Origin: a virus
Virus record (IMG/VR): IMGVR_UViG_3300030104_002295
Location: 3,904-29,556 of that record
Reading direction: 5' to 3' (one strand)
Length of the DNA stretch: 25,653 nt
The notes beneath the pieces were generated by a model. The model made no database searches and was not told the DNA's origin. It saw nothing but the letters and a program-made list of their open reading frames with translations. Shown piece after piece: positions 12,568 through 18,180 of this stretch. The translations under genes and the position numbers were made by a program. The stretch's first letter is position 1; each line of letters opens with the position of its first letter.

Positions 12568-12744
12568 TTATTTTATTTTCTTTTTCATATTCTGTAGGCG
12601 AATATCTTTAATATTAAGCAATACTCTATCTCTTTCAAATTTAGCTGATAACAAGTCATGTTGTGATAATGTTAGTAGATTACTTGCTTTTCCTACGCCT
12701 TTAATTGCTACGCCTACGCCTGGTGGTTTCATTTTCTCAGTCAT
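12568..12744 (-). CDS. Small basic protein, 58 aa, between terminase and giant gene
   Basis: A 58-residue basic protein starting MTEKMKPPGVGVAIKGVGKA, followed by a charged helix (about 25-58) ending in KKKIK. The ATG at 12744 shares its A with the stop of the large terminase (TAATG), and the stop is two bases before the giant gene ATG, so the three genes are translationally linked. It has no membrane segment and no motif I recognise. The Gly-rich, basic nature allows nucleic-acid or head-interior binding, but no function can be assigned. Confidence 0.6.
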   Translation of the reverse strand: MTEKMKPPGVGVAIKGVGKASNLLTLSQHDLLSAKFERDRVLLNIKDIRLQNMKKKIK

Positions 12745-14186
12745 TAATAATACTGCCTTGGTTCTATATATTTTGGTTCATCCATATAATCAGACTCCAG
12801 TTGAATAAAATTACCCTGCCTGAATCGCAACAAAGCTTGTGTTGTTGAATCGACTAAATCGTCATGTTCACCATAAGGGAAAGCAGCGCATTCTTCAATA
12901 ACTTCTTCTGCCCAGCGGTCGTCGGTTGCCCATACTTGACCCGCTTCAAAAAGTGGAGCTACGGAGTTTACACGTACATGCTTATCATTGCCCTTACTAG
13001 GCGTATAAGTTACTACAGGAATTCCTACTTGACGTAGCTCCTGTGTTAAGGGCATACCAGATGCTTTCGCTTCAATCAAGATTGTTTCGGGTTCCCAGTA
13101 TTTATATTCATCTAAAGCAATCTTTTTTAAATCAGGAAAATCCCATCTGCCTTTACGCATACCTAAAAGTATAATGTTGAATGGTCCGTGTTCCACGGGT
13201 TTAAATACACCCCACGTTGTTATTGCACTAAAGTCTGCAGTTTCTCGTTTACTAAACGCTGTATCATAACTTTGTATAACATGCGTTAATTCAGGTATGT
13301 CTTCTTTTGGCCACACTTTCCACCACTCACGTTTAATGATAGACCCTTCTTCAGACGTTGGCGCTTGTTGCCATTGTGCTTGCCACTTCTGTTCTGACAG
13401 AGATGCTTTAACTCCTTGTAGTTCTTCTAATTTCCAAAACTGAGGCCATAATGGTTTGTCGTTCAAGACGGCTGGAAACTCGACCACCTCCCACTGATCT
13501 GAATTTTCGTTAGTTTGTGCGCTTAATAATTTTCCCGTAAGATCCTTTGTGGACCAACGAGTCATAACTACAACAATAGCACCACCAGGTTGTAAACGCT
13601 GTCTAGGTCCTGAAGTATACCATTCGTATGCGTTGTCCATGGCTGTTTGTGAGAGTGCGTCTTGTTCCGAGTGAGGATCATCAATAATAAGCAAGTCAGC
13701 ACCACGCCCAGTAATAGCACCACCCACACCAGCAGCAAAATACTCTCCACCAGCGTTAGTTGTAAAACGCCCCGCTGCCTTAGAGTCTTGTGATAAGCTG
13801 ACATTCGGGTAAACATCTTTGAAATCTTGTTGGTCAAATAGGTTCCTCACTTTCCTACCAAAGTTATACGATAATTCTGCCGTATGTGTAGTCTGAATTA
13901 TCTTTAATTTAGGTTTTTGTCCCATCATCCATGCAGGAAACAAATGAGAAGCAAACTCAGACTTAGTGTGTCTTGGTGGCATATTAACAATTAATCGTTT
14001 TATCTTTCCACGTGAAATATCTTCAAATTTTTTTGCAATAATTTTATGATGTGAACCTGCAACAAATTCTGGCCAAACTTTTTTTACAAAAGTTAAGAAG
14101 GAGGAACGGGACTCCTCAGCCAATTTTATTTGCATTTTCCTTAATTCGTATTTTAGTACTTCCGTTGGGATTTGCTTTTGATTCAT
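12744..14186 (-). CDS. terL: Terminase large subunit (DNA-packaging ATPase-nuclease)
   Basis: A 480-residue packaging motor protein. The ATPase half shows a P-loop variant MPPRHTKSEFA (residues 69-79, Lys75), the Walker B strand ADLLIIDDP (163-171) and the coupling motif VVVMTRWS (205-212). The nuclease half shows the RNase H-like acidic residues: IQSYDTAF (Asp308), ILIEAKASG (Glu372) and EHDDLVDSTTQALL (Asp442/443/446). It cuts concatemeric DNA and pumps it through the portal. The PPRHTKSE type belongs to the group common in marine and gene-transfer-agent-like phages. No Shine-Dalgarno precedes the ATG; the bases before it are a T-run, and a promoter -10 lies only 7-8 bases upstream, suggesting a leaderless message. 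The small subunit is encoded about 3.4 kb upstream instead of adjacent. Confidence 0.95.
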   Translation of the reverse strand: MNQKQIPTEVLKYELRKMQIKLAEESRSSFLTFVKKVWPEFVAGSHHKIIAKKFEDISRGKIKRLIVNMPPRHTKSEFASHLFPAWMMGQKPKLKIIQTTHTAELSYNFGRKVRNLFDQQDFKDVYPNVSLSQDSKAAGRFTTNAGGEYFAAGVGGAITGRGADLLIIDDPHSEQDALSQTAMDNAYEWYTSGPRQRLQPGGAIVVVMTRWSTKDLTGKLLSAQTNENSDQWEVVEFPAVLNDKPLWPQFWKLEELQGVKASLSEQKWQAQWQQAPTSEEGSIIKREWWKVWPKEDIPELTHVIQSYDTAFSKRETADFSAITTWGVFKPVEHGPFNIILLGMRKGRWDFPDLKKIALDEYKYWEPETILIEAKASGMPLTQELRQVGIPVVTYTPSKGNDKHVRVNSVAPLFEAGQVWATDDRWAEEVIEECAAFPYGEHDDLVDSTTQALLRFRQGNFIQLESDYMDEPKYIEPRQYY

Positions 14187-14413
14187 AAAAAAAGTTATAT
14201 CATACTATGCGTTTGTGTAAAACTTAGACTTTACAACCGCTTGCACGACGACTGCGAAACAGGGGGTGTGGGCTGTTTTAATACTAGATATGGTGTTTGG
14301 TCTTGGGTGTAAGTACCTAATGTTGATTTAGGTATTTGCTACGCTGCTGCCTGGAAGCTGGTGCAGCCTGAAGAGATGGTAGAAACTCCTGGTGGCAGGT
14401 GATGAGATGACAT
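14187..14413. other. Mostly non-coding stretch between terL and the terminator
   Basis: About 230 bases with the terL promoter at its left end. On the minus strand a frame starting at ATG 14413 encodes 24 residues (MSSHHLPPGVSTISSGCTSF...), stops at TAG 14341-14339, and would continue for 35 codons to TAA at 14231. There is no Shine-Dalgarno; the ATG follows the terminator T-run. GCTGC/GCAGC and CTGCC/GGCAG stems can form around 14342-14400. I see no gene I can support. Confidence 0.4.
14194..14221 (-). promoter_or_regulatory. Putative sigma70-type promoter of the late operon
   Basis: On the minus strand TTTACA and TATAAC are separated by 16 bases. The expected transcription start is at about 14187, next to the terL ATG at 14186, so the message would have no or almost no leader. 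In AT-rich DNA such matches can arise by chance. Confidence 0.4.
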
Positions 14414-14442
14414 AAAAAAAGGGCAGATAATTCTGCCCTTTT
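14414..14442 (-). terminator. Intrinsic terminator (probably bidirectional)
   Basis: A perfect 7-bp stem GGGCAGA-TAAT-TCTGCCC (14421-14438) is flanked by seven A on the left and four T on the right. For minus-strand transcripts the stem is followed by seven U, a classical rho-independent terminator. It closes the unit of the 84- and 25-residue genes and insulates it from terL. The plus-strand direction has only four U. Confidence 0.85.
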
Positions 14443-14447
14443 GCCAG

Positions 14448-14457
14448 CCCTCGAGGG
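14448..14457. repeat. 10-bp perfect palindrome
   Basis: CCCTCGAGGG reads identically on both strands and lies six bases from the terminator right arm, 9 bases beyond the stop of the 25-residue gene. It could be a protein-binding site or extend the terminator structure; no further support. Confidence 0.4.
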
Positions 14458-14465
14458 TAACTGTT

Positions 14466-14543
14466 TTAATATGGTAGTCTAGTAAACATTATCAATAACT
14501 GCATTGACATCATTAAGAATATTAAAAAGGCTAGCTCTTTCAT
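14466..14543 (-). CDS. Micro-protein, 25 aa, single membrane helix
   Basis: A 25-residue peptide, almost entirely hydrophobic (KELAFLIFLMMSMQLLIMF) with a short RLPY end, predicted as one transmembrane helix. Its ATG overlaps the stop of the 84-residue gene as ATGA, the arrangement used by several other pairs in this phage, and the intrinsic terminator follows 24 bases after the stop. These two facts support real expression despite the tiny size. Function unknown; a membrane-acting or partner peptide of the 84-residue protein is a guess. Confidence 0.55.
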   Translation of the reverse strand: MKELAFLIFLMMSMQLLIMFTRLPY

Positions 14544-14794
14544 ATGTTTAACTTTTGTCTAGCCTCAGATAAAATCTTTTGCCCCCAGTTCTTTAAGTAC
14601 TGAGGTGCTTGAGGATCGAAGATCATTTCCTCAACCTCAGACTCTAACCACTTATATAAAGCACGCCAATTAATATTAGTATTAGTAGTGGTATTAGTAT
14701 TAGCTTGAATATGATTATCATTTCTAGTCGTTAGTCCTAACTGTTGCTCTAAAGCAACTAATCGGTTTTGTAAGTCGTCGTTATTATCTGGCAT
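14540..14794 (-). CDS. Hypothetical protein, 84 aa, with Asn/Thr tract
   Basis: An 84-residue acidic protein. A short helix (LQNRLVALEQQLGL) is followed by an Asn/Thr tract (NTNTTTNTNIN, about residues 32-42) encoded by a run of ATTAGT-like hexamers, and then a helical domain with Trp and acidic residues (ALYKWLESEVEEMIFD; NWGQKILSEARQKL). The ATG at 14794 has AAGGAG at good spacing. It has its own promoter (14823-14851) with a leader of about 22 bases, and a terminator after the following 25-residue gene, so the pair forms a self-contained unit. The family was not recognised. Confidence 0.7.
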   Translation of the reverse strand: MPDNNDDLQNRLVALEQQLGLTTRNDNHIQANTNTTTNTNINWRALYKWLESEVEEMIFDPQAPQYLKNWGQKILSEARQKLNI

Positions 14795-14822
14795 TGATAA
14801 CTCCTTTTTTATTGTTTAGATA

Positions 14823-14851
14823 TTCTTACTCCCATTTTATCTTATACTCAA
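14823..14851 (-). promoter_or_regulatory. Promoter P1 (TGGGA family)
   Basis: Minus strand TTGAGT, 17-base spacer, TAAGAA. The spacer ends in ATGGGAG and resembles those of the promoters at 15583, 16352 and 17534. The start is expected near 14816, giving a leader of about 22 bases to the 84-residue gene. The -10 is the weakest of the four. Confidence 0.55.
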
Positions 14852-14868
14852 GAAGATAAAATATTTCT

Positions 14869-14877
14869 TGTGGATAA
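14869..14877 (-). promoter_or_regulatory. DnaA-box sequence
   Basis: TTATCCACA on the minus strand is identical to the bacterial DnaA box consensus. It lies in AT-rich DNA between promoter P1 and the bipartite element. I found only this one perfect copy, so an origin function is suggested, not shown. Confidence 0.4.
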
Positions 14878-14926
14878 CTTTTTACTTGACAACACCCGTG
14901 CAGACGCATGTGCCGTGCACCATTCC

Positions 14927-14973
14927 TTACTACTATAGTATCAACTGCGAAGTGATGATCGGAATGGAATGGA
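14927..14973 (-). promoter_or_regulatory. Bipartite element, copy A
   Basis: Reading the minus strand, TCCATTCCATT is followed after 23 bases by ACTATAGTAGTAA; it includes the 10-bp palindrome TACTATAGTA (14931-14940). It lies 75 bases upstream of promoter P1. Four copies in the window share the same block-to-block distance (see 15009, 15671, 16441). Confidence 0.55.
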
Positions 14974-15008
14974 AGTCAGCGTGGAACAACTCACGGGGGG
15001 TGCTAACT

Positions 15009-15055
15009 TTACTATATATACTAGGAACTAGGAACGAGTGTTGGAATGGAATGGA
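15009..15055 (-). promoter_or_regulatory. Bipartite element, copy C
   Basis: TCCATTCCATT followed by TATATATAGTAA on the minus strand, with the same 36-base offset between block starts as the other copies. It lies in tandem with copy A at an 82-base period. Confidence 0.5.
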
Positions 15056-15077
15056 GGGGGCGAGTAGGTCGCCCCCT
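15055..15077. other. 9-bp GC-rich hairpin
   Basis: AGGGGGCGA-5 nt-TCGCCCCCT is a perfect stem. It is not followed by a U-run on either strand, so it is not a standard terminator. It directly abuts bipartite copy C. Confidence 0.6.
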
Positions 15078-15110
15078 AGATTGTCGACTGAACTAAAGTT
15101 GACAATTTGT

Positions 15111-15144
15111 TTTCTGCTTAGGCATTATTGGAACTAAGCAGAAA
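15111..15144 (-). terminator. Terminator-like hairpin at the end of the 137-aa gene
   Basis: A perfect 11-bp stem TTTCTGCTTAG-12 nt-CTAAGCAGAAA includes the stop codon of the gene in one arm. The minus-strand transcript continues with ACAAATTG, so there is no proper U-run; it may end transcripts by another route or protect the 3' end. Confidence 0.5.
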
Positions 15145-15547
15145 TTCTAAAGTCTGCTACTTCATCAATGGTAGCTTTTTTGTTTCTTGATACTGTGCTT
15201 TCCGATAAAGGCATAGCTTGTATTTGTTTATACTGCGTTGGTACTTTGCATTGATGATACGCAATCTCACCAAGTTTTTCTTTAACGAGTTGCGAGTCAA
15301 TCTTTGCACCCAATTTTTGTGATACATGAAGTGAATAATCCCTTCCATGCAATAAGTTTGCATTTTCGCTCATAGACAAGTCTATCATCAGTTGTCTATT
15401 GACTTTAATAAAGTCTGCTAGAACTTTCTGCATTGTTAACGCACGACCATACGCATCAACGATAGCTTGTTTATTTCTTTTACTTACACTAGCTGGGCTT
15501 TGTTGTGCCTTCTCTAGTACTTCTAATATATTAACAGCTTTTGACAT
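15134..15547 (-). CDS. Hypothetical protein, 137 aa
   Basis: A 137-residue, largely helical, Lys-rich and slightly basic protein (NILEVLEKAQQ; KRNKQAIVDAYGRALTMQKV; IKVNRQLMIDLSM) ending with KKATIDEVADFRISA. It has no membrane segment, cysteine cluster or enzyme motif that I can name. The ATG at 15547 has AAAGGA upstream, and a promoter of the TGGGA family lies at 15583-15611, giving a leader of about 29 bases. A strong hairpin covers its stop codon, so it appears to be transcribed as a single-gene unit. As one of three stand-alone units between the terminase genes it may have an accessory rather than core role. Confidence 0.7.
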   Translation of the reverse strand: MSKAVNILEVLEKAQQSPASVSKRNKQAIVDAYGRALTMQKVLADFIKVNRQLMIDLSMSENANLLHGRDYSLHVSQKLGAKIDSQLVKEKLGEIAYHQCKVPTQYKQIQAMPLSESTVSRNKKATIDEVADFRISA

Positions 15548-15582
15548 TTTATTTTCCTTTCGTCTTTCTAGTTAATACTCCC

Positions 15583-15611
15583 TTTATATCCCATGTTATT
15601 CTACTTGTCAA
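15583..15611 (-). promoter_or_regulatory. Promoter P2 (TGGGA family)
   Basis: Minus strand TTGACA, 17-base spacer ending in CATGGGA, TATAAA. Both hexamers are near consensus. The start is expected near 15576, about 29 bases before the 137-residue gene. Confidence 0.7.
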
Positions 15612-15684
15612 ATCTTTTTTTAATTTTTTTCCACACGAACTTCCAGAGCAACTCCCAGCGGGGCGTAAACTTACTTATATACAT
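15601..15684 (-). CDS. Possible micro-protein, 27 aa, basic and Trp-rich
   Basis: A 27-residue frame MYISKFTPRWELLWKF followed by a strongly basic tail (WKKIKKRFDK). It would form an amphipathic, membrane-active-looking helix. It starts 14 bases after the 44-residue gene and overlaps both the bipartite element D and the -35 of promoter P2. The Shine-Dalgarno is poor (GGTTGGGT). The overlap with regulatory sequences makes it uncertain. Confidence 0.3.
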   Translation of the reverse strand: MYISKFTPRWELLWKFVWKKIKKRFDK

Positions 15685-15718
15685 ACCCAACCGAGCTTCA
15701 GCTCGGGATGGAGATGGA
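15671..15718 (-). promoter_or_regulatory. Bipartite element, copy D
   Basis: Minus strand TCCATCTCCATC followed by GTATATAAGTAA, with the same 36-base offset as the other three copies although the sequence in between differs. It lies 59 bases upstream of promoter P2 and overlaps the end of the 44-residue gene. Confidence 0.45.
15691..15706 (-). terminator. Hairpin at the end of the 44-aa gene
   Basis: CCGAGC-TTCA-GCTCGG is a perfect 6-bp GC-rich stem with a 4-base loop that contains the stop codon region of the 44-residue gene. No U-run follows, so termination is uncertain. Confidence 0.35.
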
Positions 15719-15832
15719 GCTCAGCAGGTTGTACGCTGCCGTTGCAGCTATGACTGTAGTAGTCAGCACCTGGTGCGGGGCAATGAGCAATGCAACAATG
15801 TACACTGCGAGAAAGATCCAGACGTAATGCAT
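15698..15832 (-). CDS. Small membrane protein, 44 aa
   Basis: A 44-residue hydrophobic protein: a first transmembrane helix (YVWIFLAVYIVALLIA), a short turn PHQV, and a second hydrophobic Ala/Thr-rich segment (LTTTVIAATAAYNLL). The ATG at 15832 shares its A with the TGA stop of the 111-residue gene (TGATG), which indicates translational coupling. Codon use is GC-rich like its partner gene and unlike the rest of the window. Such two-helix small proteins in phages are often involved in membrane functions, such as lysis or exclusion, but nothing here decides that. Confidence 0.6.
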   Translation of the reverse strand: MHYVWIFLAVYIVALLIAPHQVLTTTVIAATAAYNLLSSISIPS

Positions 15833-16167
15833 CAGCCGATCATCTCCTGCATCTGTCCCCAGGCCTCAGCGTCCTGGGCCACCAGCACATGCGCACCGTC
15901 TCCCCAGTCCAGGTACCAGTATTCTAAGCGATGTAGTTCGCCGTGTTCGTTCACGTATCCGCGAAGCTCATCGCTGGGACCGCCCCAGCTGAACTGCCAA
16001 CGCCAGTAGCCCTCTGGTTGGTCGTTGAATGTATGCGGTTCTACATAGTCAAAGCCCAGTGCCTCATACTCAGGATCTTCCAAATCCATCTTCCTTCCTT
16101 TCCACATGTGCTTCACCAGCTCAGCGCAGGTGGGATTCTTCTTTAATACTGTTACAGTCTCTGTCAT
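15832..16167 (-). CDS. Hypothetical Trp-rich acidic protein, 111 aa, GC-rich codons
   Basis: A 111-residue acidic protein. The N-terminus MTETVTVLKKNPTCAELVKH leads into a C-terminal region unusually rich in aromatic residues (YWRWQFSWGG; HRLEYWYLDWGDGAHVLV). It has no membrane segment. GC-rich codons (CTG, GCC, CAG, GAG) set it apart from the AT-rich replication and late genes, suggesting recent acquisition together with the coupled 44-residue membrane protein. The ATG at 16167 has AGAAAGGA upstream. The message is expected to start near 16345 (promoter P3), leaving a structured leader of nearly 180 bases with a 10-bp hairpin just before the ribosome-binding site. The family was not recognised. 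Confidence 0.7.
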   Translation of the reverse strand: MTETVTVLKKNPTCAELVKHMWKGRKMDLEDPEYEALGFDYVEPHTFNDQPEGYWRWQFSWGGPSDELRGYVNEHGELHRLEYWYLDWGDGAHVLVAQDAEAWGQMQEMIG

Positions 16168-16185
16168 GTTGTTCCTTTCTAATGT

Positions 16186-16223
16186 AGGAAGGTGGGTGCT
16201 GATATCCGACTTACCACCTTCCT
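16186..16223 (-). promoter_or_regulatory. 10-bp leader hairpin upstream of the 111-aa gene
   Basis: AGGAAGGTGG-18 nt-CCACCTTCCT is a perfect inverted repeat in the expected 5' leader, ending 18 bases before the ATG and just upstream of the Shine-Dalgarno. It could be an attenuator, an mRNA-stability structure, a protein-binding site, or an operator in DNA. Confidence 0.55.
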
Positions 16224-16351
16224 GTTGTTCATGGTATACTTCGGGCGACCATGCTACCCTATGAAGACATCGTAGCGCTTCAAGTCATGATGAACTTCAT
16301 GAACTGTATGCGCCTCTCGCCTATCGGGTCACTCGCTTCAGTTCAGGTACT

Positions 16352-16380
16352 TATATAGTCCCATTTCATTTGATAGTCAA
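16352..16380 (-). promoter_or_regulatory. Promoter P3 (TGGGA family)
   Basis: Minus strand TTGACT, 17-base spacer ending in AATGGGAC, TATATA. It is nearly identical to promoter P4 at 17534-17562. The start is expected near 16345, far upstream of the 111-residue gene. Confidence 0.7.
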
Positions 16381-16440
16381 GACCTAAATCACATAATTTA
16401 TCTACCAGCACTTCAGCTCCTGGATCCCCGCTGCGAGAAA

Positions 16441-16487
16441 CTACTACTATAGTACCAGGGGCGACTGGGCTTTGGCAATGGAATGGA
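16441..16487 (-). promoter_or_regulatory. Bipartite element, copy B
   Basis: Minus strand TCCATTCCATT, 23 bases, ACTATAGTAGTAG, containing the palindrome TACTATAGTA (16445-16454). It is 60 bases upstream of promoter P3. Both conserved blocks match copy A, while the bases between them are only about 40 percent identical. Confidence 0.55.
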
Positions 16488-16498
16488 GGCTGGGAACT

Positions 16499-16522
16499 CA
16501 GGTGCAGCTGCAGGTGCAGCTC
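16499..16522. repeat. Tandem 12-base repeat
   Basis: Two adjacent copies CAGGTGCAGCTG and CAGGTGCAGCTC, differing at the last base. They lie immediately after the stop codon of the nuclease gene, in GC-rich DNA. Confidence 0.7.
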
Positions 16523-16526
16523 CTGA

Positions 16527-16958
16527 CTATAATGACTTAGAACTGGCGGAAAACGTAGGTAATGGAGAATGGAGAAGAGCTTCTTCCAGCTGAAGCCACG
16601 CTGCGGGGGACGCTGGCGTGGTCCATGTATGACTAGCATGGTCGGGGGACAATGCGTCAATGGAGATGACAATGGAGCTTGGGAAAAGACACATCAGCCT
16701 CTGTTCGAGGGTCTGATGCATAATAAAACTTCTCCCACCTTGTCTTGCATGGCTAAAATGCCACGATTTTTGAAAGGGGCTTAACTTTGCTTTGTTGACT
16801 TTTGTTGACGTTTTAAGTTCCAACCAGAACATTACACCATCTTTACAACCATAGCAGTCTGGTACACCAGGTAGTGCCCAACTCTCTATACGAGTCCAAA
16901 AAATATCTGGTAAATTCTTTTTAATGGAGTGCCATAATTTTGATTCTGGCTTTACCAA
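16527..16958 (-). CDS. VRR-NUC-type nuclease
   Basis: A 143-residue protein from a proposed TTG start. Residues 5-65 match the VRR-NUC (PD-(D/E)XK) fold: SKLWHSIKKNLP helix, RIESWALPGVPDCYGCKDG with Glu25 and Asp34, then FWLELK with Glu47 and Lys49, and LSPFQKSWHF with Gln63; GGRSFIM is the following strand. These are the expected metal-binding and catalytic positions. Such nucleases act on branched or structured DNA and are common small phage enzymes for recombination or packaging. The TTG at 16958 overlaps the end of the 53-residue membrane gene; an in-frame ATG at 17072 would lie fully inside that gene and encode unrelated hydrophobic sequence. The C-terminal 50 residues lie in GC-rich DNA and are less family-like. 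Confidence 0.75.
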   Translation of the reverse strand: MVKPESKLWHSIKKNLPDIFWTRIESWALPGVPDCYGCKDGVMFWLELKTSTKVNKAKLSPFQKSWHFSHARQGGRSFIMHQTLEQRLMCLFPSSIVISIDALSPDHASHTWTTPASPAAWLQLEEALLHSPLPTFSASSKSL

Positions 16959-17113
16959 AGTATCAACCAAGCGAGTAATAATATTAAAAGAATAATTAAC
17001 TTGTAACCACCAAGCATAAGAAAACCTAACCAAAAAGTACGACCATATTTTTCTGGATGTTGAGCATAACAATCAACAACTATACTCCTGTTAAAATCTC
17101 TATTAGTTCTCAT
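16952..17113 (-). CDS. Small membrane protein, 53 aa
   Basis: A 53-residue protein with a hydrophilic N-terminus (MRTNRDFNRSIVVDCYAQHP) and a long hydrophobic C-terminal segment ending KLIILLILLLAWLILW, which predicts a C-terminal tail-anchored membrane helix. The ATG at 17113 overlaps the stop of the 57-residue gene as ATGA. Its end overlaps the proposed TTG start of the nuclease gene by 7 bases. These couplings, and a much better protein character than the other frame over the same bases, support it. Function unknown. Confidence 0.6.
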   Translation of the reverse strand: MRTNRDFNRSIVVDCYAQHPEKYGRTFWLGFLMLGGYKLIILLILLLAWLILW

Positions 17114-17283
17114 GGACACCTCTTCATCAGTTCCATCATCTGATTATAATACAACAACCTAAACTCAAAGTCTTCAGCAGTCAGTGCTGCACGCCTCAAG
17201 TTCTCTATCCTACGCCAGAACAATTCGTCGGTCATAGGTAATGCATGATACTCATACAAGTCTGGTCTAATTATTACTAACAT
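17110..17283 (-). CDS. Hypothetical protein, 57 aa
   Basis: A 57-residue protein with a charged helical body (FWRRIENLRRAALTAEDFEF, then LLYYNQMMELMKRC). I chose the ATG at 17283, one base after the stop of the upstream 42-residue gene and with ATAGG about ten bases upstream, instead of the ATG at 17328 that would overlap that gene extensively. It overlaps the next gene as ATGA. No family or motif was recognised. Confidence 0.6.
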   Translation of the reverse strand: MLVIIRPDLYEYHALPMTDELFWRRIENLRRAALTAEDFEFRLLYYNQMMELMKRCP

Positions 17284-17284
17284 A

Positions 17285-17413
17285 CTAATACCTATATGAT
17301 TCTGCAAGTTCATGCACCATGTCAACAATCTGGTTTAGTTCTACATGAACAACCTTCTCGTTAGCATTTAATAGTTCTCTAACTTCTCTAATAAAATCTT
17401 CTTTGCTTTCCAT
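17285..17413 (-). CDS. Hypothetical protein, 42 aa
   Basis: A 42-residue acidic helical protein starting MESKEDFIREVRELLNANEK and ending in ELAESYRY. A strong Shine-Dalgarno (AAAAGGAG) precedes the ATG at 17413. It is the first gene behind promoter P4 (17534-17562), whose leader would be about 115 bases. Its stop is one base from the next start, so it heads a chain of coupled small genes leading to the nuclease. No function can be assigned. Confidence 0.6.
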   Translation of the reverse strand: MESKEDFIREVRELLNANEKVVHVELNQIVDMVHELAESYRY

Positions 17414-17533
17414 ACTTTCTCCTTTTCTTGCCGAAGGGAACTAGCTCGGCTACTAGAGAACAAATGAATATACAAGACTAACAAGTGCGACCCAGTATAT
17501 CCACAGTCGCCAGTATTTAGATGCTCTAAAACC

Positions 17534-17562
17534 TATATAGTCCCATTCTATTTTATAGTCAA
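17534..17562 (-). promoter_or_regulatory. Promoter P4 (TGGGA family)
   Basis: Minus strand TTGACT, 17-base spacer ending in AATGGGAC, TATATA. The -35 overlaps the stop codon of terS. It should transcribe the small genes from 17413 to the nuclease. Unlike P1-P3 it has no bipartite element upstream. Confidence 0.7.
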
Positions 17563-18086
17563 GCTTTATTTTCTAATTCTTTAACTTCCTCAAACGTAGT
17601 TTCAATACTGTACTGTTCCTTCAAGTCCTGTAGCTTCTTTTCAACCTCTTCTCTAGACATCGAGTCGATTGTACCTGTAAGTATTTCTTTCTTATCAACA
17701 TACAACCCAGCTATCTGACCACGCCTGGTCTCCGCAGCTACGGCAGCGTTCCAATTACCTGAAGCAGACGCCTGGTCTCTAATTCTTGCCAATGTAGACA
17801 ACGATCTTTCCTGAGTACAGCGATACCTATCAACATTTGCTCTAATCTCTGAATCAATAGCTTTTGCAACAATAGGATACAACTCAGGGTTCTGCAGCCT
17901 GGATGCCAGCTCAGTAGCACTCTTTTTGCTGTAACCAGCTTCTATTGCACACTGCGATGCAGACTTCAAACCCTCTGAATGAACAATCAAAAGAATGAAC
18001 TTTCTCTGTTTTGGTGTTATCTTAGGGTGAAACAACGCTTCTGACAAAGGTTGTGGTATATATACGTCCTTGTTTTCTTCTTCCAT
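17559..18086 (-). CDS. terS: Terminase small subunit
   Basis: A 175-residue protein with the N-terminal DNA-binding domain of the Terminase_2 type: KITPKQRKFILLIVHSEGLK, then ASQCAIEAGYSKKSATELAS and RLQNPELYPIV (about residues 22-73). The middle (TRRGQIAGLYVDKKE) and acidic coiled-coil tail fit oligomerisation and contact with the large subunit. It recognises the packaging site. I chose ATG 18086, with AAAAGG eight bases upstream; the in-frame TTG at 18101 would include that Shine-Dalgarno in the coding sequence. It is separated from terL by about 3.4 kb of small genes and regulatory DNA, which is unusual. A promoter overlaps its stop codon. Confidence 0.8.
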   Translation of the reverse strand: MEEENKDVYIPQPLSEALFHPKITPKQRKFILLIVHSEGLKSASQCAIEAGYSKKSATELASRLQNPELYPIVAKAIDSEIRANVDRYRCTQERSLSTLARIRDQASASGNWNAAVAAETRRGQIAGLYVDKKEILTGTIDSMSREEVEKKLQDLKEQYSIETTFEEVKELENKA

Positions 18087-18180
18087 AATGCACCTTTTCA
18101 ATAGATGTTTTCTTCAAATTAATTTTATATTACTAAATAATTCCTTAAAATGCGAGTTTTTTTCGTAAAATATAGATACT

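Follow-up and report, generated by a model that had tools for sequence, protein, structure and literature searches.

Conserved core genes and probably exchangeable RNA modules in two 5' leaders between terS and terL of a marine phage group

The IMG/VR virus record IMGVR_UViG_3300030104_002295 spans 30.5 kb, of which a stretch of 25,653 nucleotides (nt), here called the window, was analysed. All genes and features treated here lie on the minus strand, where terS (17559-18101) is followed by a small nuclease gene, by three genes named U3, U2 and U1 and by terL (12744-14186). The interval between terS and terL very probably combines core genes with two variable slots, the 5' leaders of the U3 and nuclease-operon messages, which hold exchangeable and separately folding RNA modules. 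The portal and DNA polymerase proteins show 49-57% identity to those of HTVC023P-type pelagiphages, phage 023Pt_psg01 and phage DSL-LC04, and the phages belong to a marine group that occurs across many independent metagenomes. Relatives were collected as 80 loci fetched via terL and as further loci found with promoter patterns; they are metagenome contigs that partly overlap, from which duplicates were dropped by sequence only. A terL search of 84,980 species genomes of bacteria and archaea yielded no relative.

The genes described in the initial annotation were found in their places. U3 (15832-16167) encodes 111 amino acids (aa), is present in 70 of 76 contigs and has no assigned function; it is followed by a weakly conserved, membrane-like frame of 44 aa (15698-15832). 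U2 (137 aa, 15134-15547) is highly conserved, and U1 (84 aa, 14540-14794) is followed by a frame of 25 aa (14466-14543) that is not among the widely conserved ones. The predicted structure of U3 is confident (pLDDT 86) and has no significant match in PDB or BFVD. The structure model of U2 is poor, and no relative of U2 was found among 50,697 phage records. The three units had been read as moron cassettes, yet the presence and absence of whole units expected of morons was not observed: among the 76 contigs that span nuclease to terL, 68 contain U3, U2 and U1 together and in the same order. The three are therefore conserved core genes, each with its own predicted promoter, and not recent insertions that come and go.

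Genuine insertions are found next to the core genes. In six fetched loci, extra genes stand between the nuclease and U3, each behind its own TGGGA promoter, with products of 125 aa (L026/L152 and L242) or 68-73 aa (L066, L071 and L225). These genes resemble morons in having their own promoter, and it is for them, not for the core genes U1-U3, that the moron reading holds; they also lend some support to the suggested insertion hot spot. Four of the 76 contigs lack U3, U2 and U1 by sequence, and at least two of these (L075 and L081) have small diverged genes at the same places. A DUF7222-like protein is encoded near the U3 position, between nuclease and U2, in L061, L075 and L081 (Pfam match obtained with the L061 protein). 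In L102 and L114, U2 and U1 are swapped for strongly diverged counterparts while U3 is retained together with its leader module M2; this mixture shows recombination within the interval.

Each of the three units is preceded by a sigma-70-like promoter sequence with a 17-nt spacer that contains a fixed TGGGA: TTGACT-17-TATATA for U3 (16352-16380), TTGACA-17-TATAAA for U2 (15583-15611) and TTGAGT-17-TAAGAA for U1 (14823-14851). They are the promoters first annotated as a TGGGA family, and the starts expected near 16345, 15576 and 14816 fit them. A fourth copy, overlooked at that stage, lies at the terS end and precedes the nuclease operon (TTGACT-17-TATATA with TGGGA, 17534-17562); over a stretch of 33 nt it matches the U3 promoter by 88%. 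Counted as distinct cases in relatives, the promoter recurs 101 times at U1, 90 times at U2, 117 times at U3 and about 108 times at the nuclease operon.

The variable items of the locus were found downstream of two of these promoters, as structured RNA modules that the initial annotation had not seen, and not in the genes U1-U3. For every fetched locus, whether obtained via terL or with promoter patterns, leader length was counted between the -10 box and the start codon. All but one of the 90 U2 leaders measure 25-39 nt, and all U1 leaders 23-31 nt save one of 89 nt. In the U3 slot the shortest leader has 17 nt and the longest about 290 nt, apart from a single outlier of 408 nt; in the nuclease slot the limits are 19 and about 300 nt, again with a single outlier (498 nt). 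The long leaders are mostly chains of separately folding modules, of which a slot holds 0-4, in tandem or nested. There are about 200 distinct leaders overall, with 114 distinct leaders in the U3 slot of the relatives. When leaders were cut at exterior stems, 297 domains were obtained, which form 36 recurring clusters and 23 singletons; this clustering is coarse, as some clusters merge families and a few members from the nuclease slot are small genes. By signature patterns, 46 different module arrangements were told apart among U3 leaders and 21 among nuclease-operon leaders. Eight U3 leaders and 18 nuclease leaders are free of modules, and since some phages have such empty leaders, the modules are dispensable.

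In the window, the structured U3 leader slot (16168-16345, folding z -2.9) reads M1-M19-M33-M20, followed by a constant ribosome-binding tail. M1 (16301-16344) is represented by 13 variants in U3 leaders and M19 (16262-16299) occurs in four distinct U3 leaders. The M33 hairpin (16230-16253) was recognized by sequence inspection in the window only. M20 (16186-16223) shows five two-sided pairs among only three sequences. The leader of the nuclease operon consists of M3 (17457-17527), a module found in 14 viral contigs, and of the hairpin M4 (17430-17453), which adjoins the ribosome site of the operon and occurs in 16 distinct nuclease-operon leaders.

Covariation supports RNA structure in several of these families. 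In M2 the outer helix appears as GUGGC/GCCAC, GGGUCGG/CCGACCC or GGGGG/CCCCC around an almost constant UACCGAAUC bulge; 99.1% of the cells are paired versus 90.9% in shuffles, and the covariation score was matched by 0 of 500 shuffles, which ignore relatedness, as do all covariation shuffles used here. M1 follows the same pattern of fixed inner loops with covarying helices and was likewise matched by 0 of 500 shuffles. Three two-sided pairs were found in M7. In a joint test M12, M20 and M26 scored above all 200 shuffles, and M13 and M22 above all but one. M3, M5, M8, M14 and M24 varied too little or did not pass the covariation test, the single pair of M3 being no better than chance. The mean probability that the ribosome site is unpaired is 0.74-0.77, and none of 181 leaders contains a terminator-like T-run. 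No Rfam family was matched by the leaders scanned, although not every module family was scanned at a permissive setting; apart from a tRNA in L056, the only signal was a snoRNA-like match, due to chance and under its cut-off. A tRNA-like or otherwise known RNA was rejected for the leaders on the negative results of ARAGORN and Rfam.

The modules change quickly between relatives. Phage pairs with more than 97% identity in U3 share the same module set in 3 of 3 cases; the share is 22% at 90-97% identity and 15% at 80-90%. Four modules (M3, M5, M6 and M16) occupy more than one slot. M6 and M16 occur in both slots, and M5 stands ahead of the small gene x72 in most phages and ahead of U1 in L059. 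M3 sits in the nuclease slot in most phages, in the U3 slot in L070, and also in the diverged lineage of L075 and L081, whose terS is about 45% identical; there the DUF7222-like gene lies downstream of the leader that carries it. Modules are also nested, with M12 or M16 within M8 (L025, L070) and M20 within M10 (L150, L240). The distribution of these leaders shows that related phages swap RNA modules as interchangeable parts. Fourteen module patterns were sought in two relatives (60 and 64 kb), where the leader slots were the only places with clear copies. A search of the 84,980 genomes of bacteria and archaea gave no copy of the M2 core pattern. Among cultured phages no meaningful match was obtained for a stretch of 1.3 kb between U2 and terL of L072, which does not include the U3 leader. 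In the cultured pelagiphage HTVC023P, the comparable place upstream of gp26 (L084, 8619-9037) is a long gap that holds a promoter-like sequence and a leader rich in hairpins, so that this phage might serve as a laboratory model. Infection transcriptomes exist for another phage, HTVC027P, in SAR11 HTCC1062 (PMC12753301).

The core of the small nuclease gene lies at approximately 16690-16980 and was identified by PHROG matches; its open frame extends to 16527. The start of the nuclease operon (16952-17413 and the same place in relatives) is hypervariable and holds changing, very small genes such as x42, x72, x55 and others.

Upstream of the U3, U2 and U1 promoters stands a bipartite element made up of a tandem CCATT box and, about 37 nt further downstream, a TATAGTA-like box. 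The first lies about 95-150 nt and the second about 60-125 nt upstream of the -35 box. The element had been annotated from the window alone and was borne out by counts in relatives: the CC box accompanies 86 of 116 U3 promoters, 72 of 87 U2 promoters, 65 of 96 U1 promoters and 0 of 102 nuclease-operon promoters, with at most two occurrences in shuffles. The U3 promoter element comprises CC box 3 (16474-16487) and a TATAGTA box (16438-16454), that of U2 comprises CC box 4 (15706-15718) and a TATAGTA-like box (15670-15682), and that of U1 comprises CC box 6 (14958-14973) and a TATAGTA box (14925-14940). A further element consists of CC box 5 (15040-15055) and its TATAGTA box (15007-15021). In the gap between nuclease and U3 the elements form tandem arrays with a spacing of about 80-105 nt. 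CC boxes 1 (16659-16676) and 2 (16561-16573) lie within the coding end of the nuclease and overlap its conserved tail ...LHSPLPKP... (16561-16676), so that the repeat element and the protein tail use the same DNA. In the gap between U2 and U1, segments are no more stably folded than shuffled sequence (mean z 0.2); an RNA role of the array was rejected on this ground, and the element is treated as acting at the DNA level. Packaging-site, integron-like and enhancer roles were considered as candidates for the arrays.

A perfect DnaA box (14869-14877) was observed 26 nt upstream of the -35 box of U1. It recurs at exactly this distance at 23 of 96 U1 promoters and, in that orientation, at none of the U2, U3 and nuclease promoters. 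A replication origin was discarded because the box is confined to these 23 cases and no GC-skew switch was seen. The terL gene has a very conserved promoter-like sequence of its own (TTTACA-16-TATAAC, 14194-14221), which ends 6-7 nt before the first ATG; a leaderless message or a later start codon is therefore predicted.

A strong hairpin had been assigned to the 3' end of every unit. This applies to U1, which is followed by a standard intrinsic terminator with a T-run (14414-14442). The GC hairpin after U2 (15056-15076) lacks a T-run in the window and would be a weak terminator, unlike in several relatives, where it is followed by a T-run; U3 is followed only by a short hairpin without a T-run (15691-15706). 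Similarly, a GC content above that of the flanks was found in the U3 unit (47-48%), but not in U1 and U2, which with 36-38% equal the flanks.

From this arrangement we infer promoter activity, a regulator at the boxes, a route of recombination and a host-facing function of the modules. The host RNA polymerase would start at the sigma-70-like TGGGA promoters, those of U3, U2 and U1 being aided by a putative factor that binds the CC and TATAGTA boxes. Judging from the promoter type, the U3 and nuclease messages are probably early. Their first 30-280 nt would fold into a chain of 0-4 modules and leave the ribosome site open, and host-facing RNA modules would be delivered along with the message. 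Co-infecting phages could swap modules by recombination in the conserved flanking promoter and gene sequences and at module ends.

We tentatively favour the view that the modules are exchangeable host-facing RNAs, decoys or platforms that bind host or defence proteins and are made with the early messages, because inner loops that stay fixed, outer helices that change and rapid exchange suggest a recogniser that varies with the host. More speculative is the extension that the slots form a hypervariable, RNA-only host-interaction locus, in which the phages draw on a shared pool of modules that each bind a different host or defence factor. Several points weigh against a host-facing role and against the modular structure on which it builds. 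The folding energy of the leaders is moderate, with a mean z of -1.4 for U3 and -0.7 for the nuclease slot, and the U2 coding segments of relatives (window 15134-15547) fold better than dinucleotide shuffles (mean z -2.2, 46 sequences). Since the leader values are moderate and those of U2 are lower still, the case rests on covariation and recurrence and not on energy. Several families comprise 2-5 sequences or show no two-sided changes (M8, M14, M24), and some of the longer leaders in the nuclease slot are small genes and not RNA. The leaders might not accumulate as RNA, the modules have no known target and no likeness to a known decoy RNA, and their role may be purely local to the 5' end.

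Such a local role could consist in armour, any stable structure near the start protecting the U3 and nuclease messages from decay while modules are swapped freely. The modules begin a few nucleotides from the expected start and leave the ribosome site open, and if many different structures suffice, their diversity is explained. However, M1 and M2 keep inner loops and bulges while their outer helices change, although simple armour predicts the opposite; U1 and U2 have the same type of promoter and, apart from one case, no modules; and empty leaders exist. We thus regard protection from decay as a rather unlikely explanation of the modules.

It is improbable that the modules act like put RNAs, which would bind the transcribing host polymerase, carry it past the U2 and U1 hairpins and so link the early promoters to terL and the structural genes. 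A precedent is the putRNA of HK022, a structured RNA that opens early phage transcripts and is a transcribed, cis-acting element by which pausing and termination are suppressed in early transcription (PMC9378689). The near restriction of modules to the two upstream transcripts, ahead of the hairpins of U2 and U1, would suit such a function. But that account describes one type of cis-acting put element, whereas about 36 families occur here with 0-4 modules per leader and sometimes none; tens of unrelated folds for one polymerase are hard to explain, some phages have no modules, and terL has its own conserved promoter-like sequence.

Ligand- or protein-sensing switches that control the translation of U3 and the nuclease are even harder to uphold. 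The position in the leader and the conserved loops would agree with them, but with the ribosome site mostly unpaired and no T-run in any of the leaders inspected, switch or attenuator action is unlikely, and module sets differ between most close relatives. The expression platform of a riboswitch or attenuator, in the form of a hidden ribosome site or a terminator, was not found. Very little speaks for the three units being recently inserted morons, since their apparently own promoters and the extra units beside them are outweighed by their ordered co-occurrence, by a promoter architecture that is shared and conserved, and by the restriction of a clear terminator to U1 in the window.

Among known systems, the PeSL mobile regulatory cassettes of T4-type phages, attributed to Arbiol and others in 2010, reportedly consist of an early promoter between stem-loops. 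They resemble the present locus in being small units of regulation that lie between phage genes, recombine and cause adjacent genes to be shuffled, and extra units and replaced genes are indeed found beside the modules. The difference is that the promoter is fixed here and does not move with flanking stem-loops; what is exchanged are structured RNA domains that follow it, whose cores are conserved and whose helices covary. RNA anti-CRISPRs (Racr) are likewise phage RNAs with their own promoters, but they mimic CRISPR repeats, whereas the modules described here are exchanged in chains at a fixed leader; RacrIC1 shares one message with the protein AcrIC5 and so provides a precedent for RNA and protein inhibitors made together (PMC10651486). 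The type III antitoxin ToxI is a short RNA pseudoknot (PMC5772629), which M6 resembles with its A-rich loop. Unlike in ToxI, modules are mixed, repeats of one module are rare and Rfam gave no match; no toxin family was detected among the neighbour proteins scanned, nor was the combination of tandem repeats and an RNase toxin found. Nothing similar to modular phage leader RNAs was encountered in the open-licence literature. We consider the architecture new, with no catalogued RNA family matched by the leaders scanned, and limit the claim of novelty to the architecture, not extending it to function.

Exchange of whole blocks of genes and regulatory DNA is known from phages; at this locus it is folded RNA domains that are exchanged, with tens of module families and variation concentrated at two leader slots. 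Under either reading, the locus supplies covarying, alignable RNAs that are open to direct testing. Modules that act on their own message would show with what freedom a leader RNA can be remodelled. If instead they act on the host, they would represent a ready catalogue of natural RNA ligands and possibly a new form of counter-defence, and a hypervariable RNA locus, if true, would be the RNA counterpart of an anti-defence protein island.

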